Source: a virus. From it: a stretch of 64,000 nucleotides of DNA. Under the pieces are notes generated by a model. The model was not told the DNA's origin and ran no database searches. It saw only the letters and a program-made list of their open reading frames with translations. This document shows, in pieces, positions 3,329 to 49,400 of this stretch (position 1 is its first letter; each line of letters begins with the position of its first letter). Made by a program: the position numbers and the translations under genes. Location: positions 16,821 to 80,820 of the IMG/VR virus record IMGVR_UViG_3300034139_000007; one strand, 5' to 3'.

Positions 3329-3853
3329 ATGTCATTTGCGACCCGTCTGTCGGACCTCGCCACTCGGGTTGCAACCGAGTGTAAGAGCCTGCGCACGCTG
3401 CTGAACGGCAACGCCGCCGACAACAGCGCCCTCATCACCACGGCCAAGTCCAACCTGGTCGCGGCCATCAACGAGGTGAAGACCCAGGCCAACTCCCTCG
3501 CCGCCTCTGGCGGGGCCACCATCAACGATGCGTCCAGCAACTCGACGACCCAGACCTACTCGATCAACAAGATCCTGCAGTCGCTGACCGATCTGAGTAC
3601 TTCCATCAAGAGCGAGATCCTGGGCGGGGTCGGCCTCGACGGCGACACCCTGGCTGAGCTGAAGGCCTTCATCGACAGCAGCGCGGGCGACATCACCGCC
3701 CTGGTGGCCAACCGTCTGCGCTTCGATGCTCCTCAGACGCTGACCACGCCCCAGAAGGTGCAGGTCAACGAGAATGCCGGGTCGCTGTCGCTCGTCCAGT
3801 CGGGCGATCCCGAGACCAACCTGGTCAACATCTTCCAGACCGGCCTGGCGTAA
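3329..3853 (+). CDS. Tail fibre protein
   Basis: 174 aa; the ATG follows AAGGAG. The N-terminus (MSFATRLSDLATRVATE) resembles that of the next gene (MSLASRLTDVVGAIRDK), suggesting both dock to the same tail part. A helical region containing SNLVAAINEVKTQ, a segment seen in many phage fibres, is followed by TLAELKAFIDSSAGDITALVANRLR and a beta-rich end. Probably a trimeric fibre or connector subunit. Confidence 0.75.
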   Translation: MSFATRLSDLATRVATECKSLRTLLNGNAADNSALITTAKSNLVAAINEVKTQANSLAASGGATINDASSNSTTQTYSINKILQSLTDLSTSIKSEILGGVGLDGDTLAELKAFIDSSAGDITALVANRLRFDAPQTLTTPQKVQVNENAGSLSLVQSGDPETNLVNIFQTGLA

Positions 3854-16758: not shown

Positions 16759-17338
16759 CGGGGTCTTCCTTCTTGGGCTCAACGGCGAACTTCGCCTTCG
16801 CGGTCAGGGCGACCGCAATCTGGTGTAACGTATCATCAAGCGCATGGTGCTCGCGACCGACGAATGGAACCTGCTTATCAAAGGCGGGAGCTGATGGGTC
16901 CATCCGCATCCCCCTGATAAAGCTCTGCATATCGATGCAGTCCCGGAAGAAGAACGGGTTGTCGACACCGGCGTCCTTGAAGCAGCTCTCGATGAACGGC
17001 CACTCGAAGCTGATCGGCTTGGCCCACAGGCGGGGCTGCTCCAGCGCACCCGTCACGCGGCGCACCCACTGCTGGTAGCGATACATGCCCTCGCCCAGGC
17101 TGACAGGGTCCTCGGTGGCCAGCCGGAAGGTCTCCGGGTCCTGCTTGTGCCACCAACCGCGCGTGTCCTCGCACCAGCTGCGCCAGGGTGGCATCTCCAT
17201 GGTGACGTAGAAGGTGTCGGGGCAGACGGTGCCCTCGGCGTAGTTGAACGCCACGCCGGCCAGGGAGAGCATGGCGTTGCGGTCGGGTCGGGTGCCGGTC
17301 GTCTCGATGTCCGACATGATGTCGTAGAATGCAGTCAT
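16751..17338 (-). CDS. DnaQ-like 3'-5' exonuclease (DEDD family)
   Basis: 195 aa; ATG overlaps the preceding TGA. Exo I is DIMSDIETTGTRPD (Asp and Glu ligands), Exo II lies in WAKPISFEWPFIES, Exo III is HHALDDTLHQ, a His-x4-Asp pattern of the DEDDh type. It degrades single strands from the 3' end and may act in proofreading, RNA primer or DNA turnover. The polymerase encoded nearby has its own exonuclease-like N-terminus, so this may be a separate repair or salvage enzyme. Confidence 0.88.
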   Translation of the reverse strand: MTAFYDIMSDIETTGTRPDRNAMLSLAGVAFNYAEGTVCPDTFYVTMEMPPWRSWCEDTRGWWHKQDPETFRLATEDPVSLGEGMYRYQQWVRRVTGALEQPRLWAKPISFEWPFIESCFKDAGVDNPFFFRDCIDMQSFIRGMRMDPSAPAFDKQVPFVGREHHALDDTLHQIAVALTAKAKFAVEPKKEDPDA

Positions 17339-29370: not shown

Positions 29371-29400
29371 TCAGGGGCTCGGCGTCAGCCAAGCCCCTGA
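29371..29400 (-). terminator. Hairpin after rIIB
   Basis: TCAGGGGCT pairs with AGCCCCTGA over a 12-nt loop directly after motif B copy 1 and the rIIB stop. It ends or attenuates the rII transcript ahead of the 100-aa membrane protein. Confidence 0.7.
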
Positions 29401-29413
29401 TTTAACGGTTAAA
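29401..29413. promoter_or_regulatory. Motif B dyad, copy 1
   Basis: TTTAACGGTTAAA. It contains the rIIB stop codon (TAA) and is followed by a hairpin, then the next gene 48 bp on. Confidence 0.68.
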
Positions 29414-30596
29414 GTCCCGCAGCGGTCTCGGCACGCTGCAGTCGATCGATCTGCGGCGGGGCACTGTCGGTCAGGCCCAGCTCCGCTTCGATCTCATCGA
29501 GACGATCCGACAGGGTCTTGTCGTCCCAGTCGCTGTCGTCGATGTTGAGCGTGGCGCGGAGACGCTCGACGCGGTCGGTGAAGCTGACCGGTGCGTCGTC
29601 ACCGACAACCGGACCCAGGTCACCGCTCAGGTCGCGCATGGCCACCAGAGCCTCGACGCGAGAAGCATAGGTGTCCACGACGGTGCCCGCGGGGTTCACA
29701 AGGTCCCATTGATCGCCGTCACGGTCGGCCCAGAGCACACGCCAGCCAGCGTCCCAGGCGGCCAGGGCCGGACCGCAATCCTCACCCTCGGGCAAGGCAA
29801 ACTTGATGCCCTCACGCTGGTACAGGGCCACGCGGTCGTAGCTGAACACCAGCTGGTCCTCGCCCTCGAAGAAGACGCCCTCGCGGGCCTCCTGCATCGA
29901 GATCTCGAACAGCACCTCGTGCTTCTCGGTGCGGCCCTTGGAGCCGCCGCCGTCCTGCGGGAAAGACACGACGTCAGACGGGTCCTCGGCCATGATCAGG
30001 CAGCGATAGTCCGACATGCTCTTCAGGTACTTGTGATTGCAGAAGTGCAGGCCACGCGAGCAGGTGTTGTTGTAGTTGAGGTCGCACTCGTCGCGCGGCA
30101 TCCGAACGATCCGACCCGGTGAGTTGTCCATGGACCTGGTGTGGGCGTCCAGGTACTGCATGTTGACGTACCGATAGGCCAGGAAGCGACCGTCCGGCAG
30201 GATCGGCAGCTCGGCCCGCTCGACCCACTGAAACAGCATGTCGATGGCGTCGCGGGTCGGGTTGCGCATGACGCGGTCCAGGAACAGCGCATACGGCTCC
30301 GGGTCGCGGCCACGGTTCACCATCTGGAGGATGCGGTCGACGAGGTAGTTGTCGACACGTCGGCCCTGGAAGGTGACGCGACCGGCGAAGACGGTCACGT
30401 CGCCATAGTTGCCCAGGGCTTTGGTGAGGCGGTCCGAGGCGTTGACGATGCCGTCGACCTGGTCGTAGTCACCATTGGCGATGGCCGTCTTCAGCTCCTC
30501 GTATCGAGGGTTGTCCGACGGAACCGTGAAGGGCCTGCCGGCCACGAACACGGTCACGCTGTCAGCGGACACGATTGAGATCACAGGGTTAGTCAT
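29409..30596 (-). CDS. rIIB: rIIB-like protein
   Basis: 395 aa. Diagnostic rIIB block: NPTRDAIDMLFQWVERAELPILPDGRFLAYRYVNMQYLDAH, MDNSPGRIVRMPRDECD, TCSRGLHFCNHKYL, then DPSDVVSFPQDGGGSKGRT. T4 rIIA/rIIB act together at the membrane to control lysis inhibition and to escape RexAB exclusion. The 8-bp overlap with rIIA supports co-translation. The acidic C-terminal ~100 aa are not part of the core family block. Confidence 0.92.
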   Translation of the reverse strand: MTNPVISIVSADSVTVFVAGRPFTVPSDNPRYEELKTAIANGDYDQVDGIVNASDRLTKALGNYGDVTVFAGRVTFQGRRVDNYLVDRILQMVNRGRDPEPYALFLDRVMRNPTRDAIDMLFQWVERAELPILPDGRFLAYRYVNMQYLDAHTRSMDNSPGRIVRMPRDECDLNYNNTCSRGLHFCNHKYLKSMSDYRCLIMAEDPSDVVSFPQDGGGSKGRTEKHEVLFEISMQEAREGVFFEGEDQLVFSYDRVALYQREGIKFALPEGEDCGPALAAWDAGWRVLWADRDGDQWDLVNPAGTVVDTYASRVEALVAMRDLSGDLGPVVGDDAPVSFTDRVERLRATLNIDDSDWDDKTLSDRLDEIEAELGLTDSAPPQIDRLQRAETAAGL

Positions 30597-46718: not shown

Positions 46719-46830
46719 AAATAGGGCTTGCCAGTCTCTGCGAACGGGACCAGGCTGCGCCTTGGGCGGCCCGGCGAAACAACAGGATTTCCAGGCTGGA
46801 GGTTTCCATAACAGGATCGACCGTCCATTT

Positions 46831-46882
46831 ACTATTCTATCTTATATTCTTTTCTATAGATAAAAAATTTTAAGAGAATAGT
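46831..46882. other. AT-rich block with inverted repeat (candidate promoter or origin element)
   Basis: Only 8 of 50 bases at 46831-46880 are G or C in an otherwise GC-rich genome. The block is bounded by ACTATTCT (46831-46838) and its complement AGAATAGT (46875-46882). It lies in the 241-bp non-coding gap 46687-46927, which also holds motif A copy 6. The rest of the gap shows nothing recognisable. Confidence 0.55.
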
Positions 46883-46927
46883 GTTTCGGCTTTTTATTCC
46901 GTTTGGAAACCCCCGCTCTCAGGCGCT

Positions 46928-47413
46928 TTACGCCGCACCCCGGCCCAAGAGCCTCGCACGGACCTCTTCACGCGACAAAATCGGCCCCGGACGACGACGC
47001 ACTACCGGCACCGCGTCGACGCGCTCCAGCTCCAGCACCACGTCGCGCACGTCGTAATCGCTAGCCTCGCACAGACGATGGACCTCATCCCAGGCCATAT
47101 CGACCGTGGGAGCGGAGATCGTCCAGAACCGAACCCCGCGTGCCTTGACCACGTAACGATCCCCACCCGCGAGCTGCGGCAGGCAAGTCGCGGGCGGGGC
47201 ACGCGGGGTGTCATCTATGAACACCTTGGGTGGCTTGCACCAGACGAGGGCTACTGTGTCGAACACCAGATCGTTCGTACCTAGCAGCTGCTGGCCGGCA
47301 CCGGGCAGGCCCAGATCCTGCGACGCGGGGATTTGCTGGCGACCGACCACGGCACCGACGTCATCGGTGCTGGTGGTCTTCACGGCGTCGAGGCCGAAGC
47401 GGGATTTTAACAT
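46928..47413 (-). CDS. Hypothetical protein (161 aa), start codon inside motif B
   Basis: ATG in the centre of TTTAACATGTTAAA (copy 9). Begins MLKSRFGLDAVKTTSTDDVGA; contains WCKPPKVFIDDTPRAPPATCLPQLAGGDRYVVKARGVRFWTIS and an Arg-rich end (VVRRRPGPILSREEVRARLLG). The last gene before the AT-rich block. Family unknown. Confidence 0.7.
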   Translation of the reverse strand: MLKSRFGLDAVKTTSTDDVGAVVGRQQIPASQDLGLPGAGQQLLGTNDLVFDTVALVWCKPPKVFIDDTPRAPPATCLPQLAGGDRYVVKARGVRFWTISAPTVDMAWDEVHRLCEASDYDVRDVVLELERVDAVPVVRRRPGPILSREEVRARLLGRGAA

Positions 47414-47419
47414 GTTAAA
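47406..47419. promoter_or_regulatory. Motif B variant with central ATG, copy 9
   Basis: TTTAACATGTTAAA, containing the ATG of the 161-aa gene and overlapping the stop of the 77-aa membrane gene. Confidence 0.6.
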
Positions 47420-47648
47420 AACTCCAGTGAATGAGGATGCCGCACAGGCACAGAACCATGGCGGGGATGGCGATGGCCGCGACCGCGTCCTGGATGGCTG
47501 CGTCGCGCTGGAAACGGTAGGCTGCACTCTTGAACCGGTCGCGGGCCTCGAAAAGACAGACCAGACCCAGGATGATGGTCAGTAGGGCCAGGCCCGCGCC
47601 GCCGAAGCGGGCGAACATTTGGGCCAGGACCAAGATTTCAGAACTCAT
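47415..47648 (-). CDS. Small membrane protein, two predicted helices (77 aa)
   Basis: ATG at 47648. Hydrophobic segments GAGLALLTIILGLVCLF and AAIAIPAMVLCLCGILIHW separated by a basic loop (EARDRFKSAAYRFQRDA). Behind motif B copy 10 and the double hairpin. A membrane role in exclusion or lysis control is possible. Confidence 0.68.
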   Translation of the reverse strand: MSSEILVLAQMFARFGGAGLALLTIILGLVCLFEARDRFKSAAYRFQRDAAIQDAVAAIAIPAMVLCLCGILIHWSF

Positions 47649-47660
47649 CGGCTTCGCCTT

Positions 47661-47673
47661 TTTAACCGTTAAA
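47661..47673. promoter_or_regulatory. Motif B dyad, copy 10
   Basis: TTTAACCGTTAAA, 12 bp before the ATG of the 77-aa membrane protein and right after the double hairpin (- direction). Confidence 0.72.
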
Positions 47674-47679
47674 GTGGAA

Positions 47680-47752
47680 GGGGCTCTTGTCGCACGCGCG
47701 TAACGCGCACAGGCGTGCGACAAGAGCCCCTTGGTGCTTTCGCACCAAGGGG
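47680..47752 (-). terminator. Tandem hairpins sharing four bases
   Basis: One 18-bp perfect stem (47680-47697 with 47713-47730) and one 11-bp perfect stem (47727-47737 with 47742-47752) share CCCC at 47727-47730, so both full stems cannot form together. They lie between motif B copies 10 and 11. Strong terminator or switch-like attenuator. Confidence 0.78.
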
Positions 47753-47766
47753 TCAGGGGAGGGGAC

Positions 47767-47779
47767 TTTAACCGTTAAA
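47767..47779. promoter_or_regulatory. Motif B dyad, copy 11
   Basis: TTTAACCGTTAAA on the + strand, directly after the stop of the 213-aa gene. Unlike the others, its flanks (ACTTTAACC) read in the opposite orientation. Confidence 0.65.
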
Positions 47780-48421
47780 TCAGGCGGCGATGGCCTCCTG
47801 CGACGGGGCGGCGCGGGCCGTCAGGCCCTTGTCCAGCATGGCGAACAGGGTTTCCAGCGCCTGCGTCGCTTCCGGCGATGCGTTGTCCAGCAACGCGGCG
47901 ATGGCCTTGGAAGCCGTGGTCTGGCAATCCAGAACCGGGTTATAGTCCGGGTTCAGGACAGTCAGGCCCGCCTCGTCGTCGCCCTCCTCGCGGATATTGT
48001 CCGTCTTGGCCTGCTCTTGCTCAATGGCCGTGGTCGCCTTGCCGGCCTTTTGTTCCTCAATCCACTTGCGGGGATTGATCGACGCCGCATAGGCGGTCAC
48101 GGCGGCGTCAAACTCTTCCGGCGTCATGGCTTCCGGCGAGGGGATGGCCTTGCGGGCATTGGCAAGGTTCGCGTCATCCTTGAAGAAGGTGTTAGCGCGG
48201 GACTTGTGCACGGCGGCGACGCCGCCACCCTTGGATTGAGGGACCTTTTCGCCGACAAGTGTCGACACGGCTTTGAGCGAGAGGGTCGGGTCGGCGACGA
48301 TGAAGGCGACGAACAGAGCCGTCATCGTCGAGGCGACTTTGCCCGTCGCCTTTTCGGCTTTGGAAGCCGCGTCGCGGGCGGCATGAACGGCGGAGGCGGT
48401 ATGCGTTTGAACGTTGAACAT
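47780..48421 (-). CDS. Hypothetical protein (213 aa)
   Basis: ATG at 48421 has GAAAGGG upstream; an upstream in-frame TTG would translate that site. The N-terminal region is helical and Ala-rich (SAVHAARDAASKAEKATGKVASTMTALFVAFIVAD), perhaps one membrane-associated helix. The middle is charged (EEQKAGKATTAIEQEQAKTDNIREEGDDEAGL). First gene behind motif B copy 12; it is isolated by hairpins, suggesting high independent expression. Unknown role. Confidence 0.7.
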   Translation of the reverse strand: MFNVQTHTASAVHAARDAASKAEKATGKVASTMTALFVAFIVADPTLSLKAVSTLVGEKVPQSKGGGVAAVHKSRANTFFKDDANLANARKAIPSPEAMTPEEFDAAVTAYAASINPRKWIEEQKAGKATTAIEQEQAKTDNIREEGDDEAGLTVLNPDYNPVLDCQTTASKAIAALLDNASPEATQALETLFAMLDKGLTARAAPSQEAIAA

Positions 48422-48450
48422 TGTGTGCCCTTTCAAGGCGAAGGTTGAAG

Positions 48451-48463
48451 TTTAACCGTTAAA
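48451..48463. promoter_or_regulatory. Motif B dyad, copy 12
   Basis: TTTAACCGTTAAA, 29 bp upstream of the 213-aa gene. It marks the right boundary of the motif B region. Confidence 0.7.
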
Positions 48464-48504
48464 GTTTGGGAGTAAGTTGCAAGTCATAAGGGTGGTCACT
48501 CGCC

Positions 48505-48517
48505 GACCTACTGGGTC
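48505..48517. promoter_or_regulatory. Weak motif A-like dyad
   Basis: GACCTACTGGGTC keeps the CTACTGG core and has its own perfect dyad (GACC/GGTC), but differs from the other copies in the arms. Confidence 0.35.
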
Positions 48518-48754
48518 AGCACCTGTCACGCGCGCGGGGCGCGTGAACCCTCTTCATGTATGGCCTTGCTTCCGTCTCCTTCTCTTCATCCGATAACTAA
48601 GAATACCCTATCCTACCATGCAGAGGGGGTGCAGCACGAAGGTGTACACCCTCTCTGGTCAGTGGTGGCGTGGGGAGAGATGCGACCATCCGAGAAACAC
48701 TCCCGGAAAAAATCCGCAGAAAAAGCACTAGTAACGTACAAAAGGCATAGAAAA

Positions 48755-48780
48755 AGCCCCGATCCAGGAGGATCGGGGCT
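48755..48780 (-). terminator. Rho-independent terminator of the primase operon
   Basis: AGCCCCGATCC and GGATCGGGGCT form an 11-bp stem with a 4-nt loop, followed on the - strand by TTTTTCT. Confidence 0.92.
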
Positions 48781-48803
48781 CATTCCGTTCAGTTTTCGGT
48801 CGA

Positions 48804-49400
48804 TCAGCGGCCCAAGTAGGCCAGAACCGTCCCATCCCACCCTCGACGCGCGATCCAACGACGCTCCCGGCTGGTCTGGTCCGGTTCCAGGGTGATGTCC
48901 GACATCGGCACCCCGGTCAGACCCGCGAGCCGGAAACGCTGGTCGTCACACCACTTGGCGTCCTCGACAGCCGCGGCCTGCACGGCGAGACCGGCCCCAA
49001 CACCCAAACCGGCCATCCGAGCGCCCGCCGGGATGATGTATTCGCCGTCACGGAGCGGCTCGCGAACCAGACCGCCGTCGGCGAACATCCGCTCTAGGTC
49101 ACGACGCGACTGATCCGCCGATTTCTGCATCGACGTCGCGGCGTACTGGAACGCCCGCGACGCCGCGCGCATCTGATCCGCCGCCGAGGGTGCCCTACGC
49201 ATGCAGACCCGCGCAGCGCGGTCGGCCTCCACGTCGGAGCAGCCCAGCCAGATCCAATAGTCCTTCCACCGAAGCTCCAGATACTTGGCCTGGACCTGAC
49301 GGTCGGTGTCCTCGACGAAGGTCGTGATGACGCTGTTCGGCACCGACGCCCCCGCCGGCCCCAAGATCGCCGCCCGGATCTTCTCAATCAGCTTTCGCAT
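48804..49400 (-). CDS. Hypothetical protein (198 aa)
   Basis: Helical N-terminus (RKLIEKIRAAILGPAGA), a Trp-rich KYLELRWKDYWIWLG segment, long helix (RRAPSAADQMRAASRAFQYAATSMQKSADQSRRDLERM), then a Gly/Ala patch. Last gene of the primase operon, before a strong terminator. No family recognised. Confidence 0.7.
   Translation of the reverse strand: MRKLIEKIRAAILGPAGASVPNSVITTFVEDTDRQVQAKYLELRWKDYWIWLGCSDVEADRAARVCMRRAPSAADQMRAASRAFQYAATSMQKSADQSRRDLERMFADGGLVREPLRDGEYIIPAGARMAGLGVGAGLAVQAAAVEDAKWCDDQRFRLAGLTGVPMSDITLEPDQTSRERRWIARRGWDGTVLAYLGR

Follow-up and report, generated by a model that had tools for sequence, protein, structure and literature searches.

Two RNA hairpins with six bases in common, lying behind a gp003-like gene of a phage related to Caulobacter phage Seuss, are quite probably an element of the 3′ end of that gene's transcript and not a switch for the gene downstream. 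In the RNA of the window (the whole 64,000-nucleotide stretch analysed, positions 16,821 to 80,820 of IMG/VR virus record IMGVR_UViG_3300034139_000007, an 80,820-base virus contig) they are not two exclusive states: they coexist and trade base pairs, and only one of them is full length at a time. Among relatives the hairpins keep to the upstream gene while the downstream gene varies by lineage, and it is for this reason that the block is read as a gp003-like 3′-end element.

The hairpin block and its setting

The primase of this phage shares 75% identity with its Seuss counterpart and 41–44% with the primases of JWF and 2-1 (Achromobacter phages) and Lumi (a Xylophilus phage). Gene order pairs the three genes of this region with gp003, gp002 and gp001 of Seuss, at 28%, 32% and 41% identity (E 6e-15, 0.005 and 4e-19). 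The sense strand is the minus strand, on which the order is the 213-aa gp003-like gene, motif B, small hairpin, large hairpin, motif B and the 77-aa gene, the block lying between the gp003-like stop at 47780 and the start at 47648:

47780–48421, minus strand: gp003-like gene, 213 aa from ATG, phrog_33105, 28% identical to Seuss gp003
47727–47752, minus strand: small hairpin, 11-bp perfect stem with GAAA loop, first after the gp003-like gene
47678–47732, minus strand: large hairpin, perfect stem of 20 bp with 4 further inner pairs; the later of the two in the sense RNA
47727–47732, minus strand: segment common to both stems (sense RNA AAGGGG), where the junction slides
47415–47648, minus strand: 77-aa membrane-type protein, the Seuss gp002 counterpart by position (32% identical, E 0.005)
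48451–48463, no strand assigned: motif B copy upstream of the gp003-like gene
47767–47779, no strand assigned: motif B copy directly after the gp003-like stop codon
47661–47673, no strand assigned: motif B copy immediately past the large hairpin and ahead of the start of the 77-aa gene

The original prediction of two perfect stems that share bases stands in outline. Its 11-bp stem is present as described, closed by a 4-nt loop that reads GAAA on the minus strand; its 18-bp stem is in fact one of 20 bp, pairing 47678–47697 with 47713–47732 around a 15-nt loop; and the sharing it saw in CCCC at 47727–47730 extends to the six bases CCCCTT at 47727–47732. In the sense RNA two identical CCCCTT copies compete for the shared AAGGGG, the 5′ one in the small stem and the 3′ one in the large stem. 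Of the 11 perfect stems of at least 10 bp with loops of at most 40 in the 64-kb window none is longer than the large stem, the runner-up having 13 bp, and the block holds the only overlapping pair of stems of at least 9 bp there.

Can only one full stem form at a time, as had been proposed? Of full stems this is true, the contest being over six bases while both hairpins stay folded. Ensemble folding has each shared base pairing partly upstream and partly downstream in the window and in relatives L024, L055, L056, L062 and L038, so that both hairpins exist together with a migrating junction; in the window the probability of large-stem pairing climbs from 0.16 to 0.95 over the six bases. The minus-strand RNA of 47655–47785 folds at -73.4 kcal/mol (z -11.2) and the plus-strand RNA at -70.6 kcal/mol (z -7.2), values that none of 200 shuffles reached in either case. 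Wobble polarity leaves the strand unsettled: the small stem of L024 forms a U.G pair when read as sense RNA, whereas the C.A mismatch of L056 would become G.U in antisense RNA.

By synteny the block would lie inside a terminal repeat. The Seuss gp001–gp003 region falls within a terminal repeat of 1,748 bp that was predicted from reads (PMC4591317); for Lumi, PhageTerm gives a terminal repeat of 2,298 bp (PMC9959647), and Lumi gene 003, at 1343–2140 of the Lumi record, is inside it. The leader that precedes the gp003-like gene can be aligned between the window, L024 and Seuss; at 48540–48700, including the stretches GGGTGTAC and ATTCTTAGT, it aligns with the latter two far better than the hairpin block does, and it is possibly a promoter or packaging end. 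A search with the leader pattern matched only Seuss and the L024 contig, and a DNA search of phage records with 46800–49000 gave no match. Before this leader, at 48754–48781 on the minus strand, stands a canonical terminator with an 11-bp stem and TTTTTCT, kept in L024 (T-tail score 4.27 for the terminator at 48755). GGCGTGGTAGCG, exact or nearly so, recurs across the terminal-repeat regions of JWF and of 2-1, once within a hairpin loop (judged by eye), the positions being about 10104 and 10549 in L016 and about 9131, 10187 and 10723 in L018.

Recurrence after gp003-like genes of relatives

Relatives' loci (the L numbers) came from a primase scan, which gave 78 loci, and a terminase scan, which gave 80. 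Their gp003-like genes, 35 in total, were traced by profile and pairwise searches, except that Lumi and L053 were placed by position alone, and some of the tracing seeds were chosen by position at a stage when their folds were already known. A profile comparison of the alpha and beta gp003 sets gave a probability of 2%, which does not establish homology; what links these sets is position alone. A scan of viral contigs with the gp003 protein gave 18 pattern stretches with no relative among them. The predicted structure of the protein is all helical (mean pLDDT 57), and as its best fold matches, at Z 5.9, are to unrelated proteins, no function can be read from it.

A strong hairpin (stem score at least 24, starting at most 75 nt from the stop) follows 35 of the 35 genes. 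All 20 of those not picked by structure reach the score of at least 24, compared with 46 of the 321 other ORF ends in these loci; the Fisher p of 4e-16 was computed on related sequences, which are not independent. This set of 20 excludes the window, L055, L056, L062, L038, L047, L052, L053, L065, L072, L075, L025, L030, L071 and L017, and within it homology is weak for L073 (1.3e-4), L069 (3e-4) and L086 (1e-3). Fold z-scores of 13 genes not chosen for hairpins, window included, gave a Mann-Whitney p of 0.0003, the full z-score set also holding genes chosen in part for theirs.

An overlapping pair (at least 3 nt, with a long second stem) is present in 6 of the 35: the window with 6 shared bases, L024 with 7, L055 with 8, L056 with 9, L062 with 3 and L038 with 4; L047 is left out because almost nothing is shared there on folding. 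L024, whose primase is 82% identical over the covered part, has the same pair at 3330–3418 in other sequence, with TTTCTTTTT after the large stem. In Seuss, the closest of the named relatives, the layout is present, a small hairpin at 790–814 and a GC-rich second hairpin, and on folding the small one is full with no strong competing large stem. The large stems are near-perfect in the window (24 pairs), L024 (23), L056 (24) and L055 (23), and shorter, 16–18 pairs, in L062, L047 and L038.

Within the distant group that carries overlapping pairs (L055, L056 and L062) one comparison bears directly on pairing. Between L055 and L056, whose proteins are 96% identical, one C-G-C position became A-T-A in three competing arms (AGCCCaGTT / AACtGGGCT / AGCCCaGT against AGCCCcGTT / AACgGGGCT / AGCCCcGTT), and from these three matched changes it follows that both pairings were kept; the upper stem, too, altered in length with both sides in step. 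The triple change is one event in two sequences, and the matched arms could come from template switching in palindromes without selection. What is not kept in the sequences compared is the gene downstream, which differs in L055, L056 and L062 and in JWF, while the hairpins stay with the upstream gp003-like gene.

A separate scan for overlapping stems covered 72 primase loci plus the window, Seuss, Lumi and 2-1, i.e., 76 sources, with L019, L020, L021, L026, L046, L061 and L068 set aside as Seuss duplicates or as having little downstream sequence. It returned 14 sense and 9 antisense matches in 370,511 bases, against a background of 3 in 1,281,290. Eight of the 14 are the hairpin pair after a gp003-like gene (window, L024, L038, L047 and L056–L059, the last four being one sequence), another, in L032, follows a gp003-like gene inside a repeat array, and five are elsewhere (a second window match inside a gene, L049, L074, L081 and L093). 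L055/L090 and Seuss fall below the threshold, and L062/L063 is listed as antisense because its overlap is too short for the sense rule. A looser version was discarded, as chance matches were too many for use. The pattern GGGGCTCTTG...CAAGAGCCCC matched six stretches of contig, the L056 group accounting for four; L182 and L183, also matched, have a single stem and no small hairpin. Rfam gave four sub-threshold matches, none near its gathering score.

Motif B, the sequence TTTAACCGTTAAA, is a palindrome core with one central base that occurs in nine exact copies in the record, with none for the reversed control. Its listed positions are 29401, 32803, 36742, 38606, 41101, 43114, 44297, 47661, 47767 and 48451, and copies stand just upstream of the starts of early minus-strand genes. 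That it flanks the block on both sides was rightly noted, and of the reversal claimed for one copy only a short flank remains: the core has the same orientation on the plus strand, with GT after it in 8 of 10 copies and AC before it at 47767. An inverted identity of 23 bp, reaching beyond the motif, links 29395–29417 and 47762–47784. Seuss has TTTACC...GGTAAA at annotated ribosome-binding sites, in five places of which two recur in the right terminal repeat, and JWF/2-1, Lumi, L073, L055/L056, L062, L065, L072 and L075 have palindromes of their own, several at the gp003 3′ end or at a hairpin apex. From sequence, motif B and these palindromes look like a fast-changing operator set, altered per lineage, for a putative binder.

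Processing, termination and other readings

What, then, would two overlapping hairpins do at the end of a message? The best explanation as a whole, tentative though a serious contender, is a 3′-end element with an RNase III-type cut and a hairpin cap. During transcription the small hairpin would form first, and RNA polymerase would mostly read on because the tail is poor. The long duplex would form next and take the shared G-run, and a double-strand RNase of RNase III type may then cut it, parting the gp003 message from the one downstream. Once free, the G-run could re-pair with the small hairpin, whose full 11-bp stem would be an exonuclease-resistant 3′ cap, so that the role of the overlap would be to pass bases from a processing hairpin to a protecting one. 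The RNase III step is itself held a shade more tentatively than the whole. A duplex of about 20 bp or more does lie between two cistrons (20-bp perfect plus 4 pairs, between the stop at 47780 and the start at 47648). Counted for the 3′-end reading are the hairpin by the stop in 35 of 35, the kept overlap pairing, the L055/L056 co-change, the long stems, the mostly poor tails and the unconserved downstream gene; counted against it are the short large stems of L062, L047 and L038, Seuss without a strong competitor, the ambiguous wobble and template switching.

As to mechanism, RNase III processing against a degenerate terminator, the choice is one that we infer. Canonical termination in the window is not supported: a GC-rich stem-loop is there, a T-rich tract directly after the stem is not. 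T-tail scores are 1.24 for the small stem and 0.33 for the large one, or 1.97 if it is cut at CCCC, where two canonical terminators give 3.88–4.27 and the 95th percentile of random 64% GC sequence is 1.55. With neither hairpin having a good T-tail, and the block not listed by the terminator scan, the strong barrier once proposed here is not supported. Partial or fail-safe stopping of transcription at the gp003-like gene end, by overlapping intrinsic terminators whose T-tails have decayed, is possible but rather unlikely. Canonical terminators do stand at the same place in JWF, 2-1, L042, L048, L033, L030 and L065, and tails are good in the non-overlapping hairpins of JWF, 2-1, L042, L033 and L049. 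The L024 large stem is followed by its T-tail sequence (score 4.05), and the T-tailed hairpin of L065/L072 is replaced by the overlapping pair in L055/L056/L062. Overlapping pairs have poor tails except for the L024 large stem and the L062 small one (2.54), however; tails are poor also in Seuss, L055, L056, L047 and L038, and those of the window compare badly with the canonical 3.9–4.3.

A roadblock-assisted toggle is distinctly improbable. An operator-like palindrome in the position of the T-tract, bound by a putative phage protein (perhaps the gp003-like protein itself), would stall polymerase before the large 3′ arm is made, a proposal just as improbable in its own right, so that only the small hairpin forms; with motif B after the large hairpin unbound, the large hairpin would form and transcription continue. 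Consistent with this, a motif copy or analogue is about 4–13 nt from the large hairpin in the window, L024 and Seuss, a lineage palindrome is at the gp003 3′ end in the window, L024, L073, L055, L056, L062, L065, L072, L075 and Lumi, and it is the small-hairpin apex in L055, L056, L062, L065 and L072. Motif copies are also, however, at ribosome-binding sites of genes without such a hairpin pair, a copy immediately past the gp003 stop is missing from Seuss, JWF and 2-1, and the palindromes of L062 and L065 occur only once in the stretch examined. If it were true, occupancy of a DNA site would set which overlapping hairpin forms and whether terminal-repeat genes are transcribed further, and palindrome and hairpins would have changed together in each lineage.

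A cruciform or single-strand hairpin serving replication or packaging, i.e., a DNA element of the terminal repeat, is more improbable again: the palindrome is large and perfect, the locus falls by synteny within the Seuss repeat, and gene 003 of Lumi is inside a repeat too, but its position in Seuss is mid-repeat, it is tied to one gene's 3′ end, and relatives carry there T-tailed terminators, which act in RNA. Least probable of all, and hardly to be entertained, is the terminator/antiterminator switch gating the 77-aa membrane gene that was originally proposed, of which there survive an RNA-level element, a strand leading into that gene, competing stems kept in relatives, and a genuine competition for one segment with near-equal energies, so that the junction slides, but neither the classical switch nor control of the gene: the small hairpin is complete before the 3′ arm of the large one is transcribed, and the latter therefore cannot stop termination there, the tails are poor, the hairpins coexist, and they track the upstream gene and not the unconserved one downstream.

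The block marks the 3′ end of a fast-changing terminal-repeat gene, alongside a lineage-specific operator-like palindrome. A pair that changes sequence yet keeps a 3–9-base overlap in several lineages is a natural test of one dual-use element, the dual use in question being overlapping stems as processing site and end cap in one RNA element.

Comparison with known systems

In the open literature searched on the named phages, stoperators, exclusive hairpins with terminators, and tandem terminators with RNase III, no such element appears for these phages. The Seuss paper makes no mention of a hairpin element (PMC4591317), and the accessible parts of the Lumi (PMC9959647) and TCUP2199 papers hold no match for terminator or palindrome.

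In attenuators and riboswitch expression platforms, as here, a single segment has two alternative partners. The two pairings of such elements are mutually exclusive; in the window six bases pair both ways, and both hairpins persist. In such elements the antiterminator can form before the terminator is completed, whereas in the window the small hairpin is first in sense order and already passed when the large stem is completed, and there is no sensor domain and no Rfam match above the gathering score. Stoperators of Cluster A mycobacteriophages are 13 bp long. They are short sites dispersed between genes (PMC9283540), as motif B is dispersed at gene boundaries, but the stoperator is asymmetric and motif B a near-perfect palindrome. 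Tandem intrinsic terminators likewise place two GC-rich hairpins after a gene, and the relatives' locus has T-tailed versions; here the hairpins overlap and the T-tails of the window are weak. Early mRNA of phage T7 has intercistronic RNase III processing hairpins. The block differs from them in that a shorter hairpin precedes the duplex, with six bases common to the two, and in that its cleavage is putative, but it has, as they do, a long and nearly perfect duplex separating early genes in a terminally repetitive phage, one that could leave a stem at the 3′ end of the upstream message.
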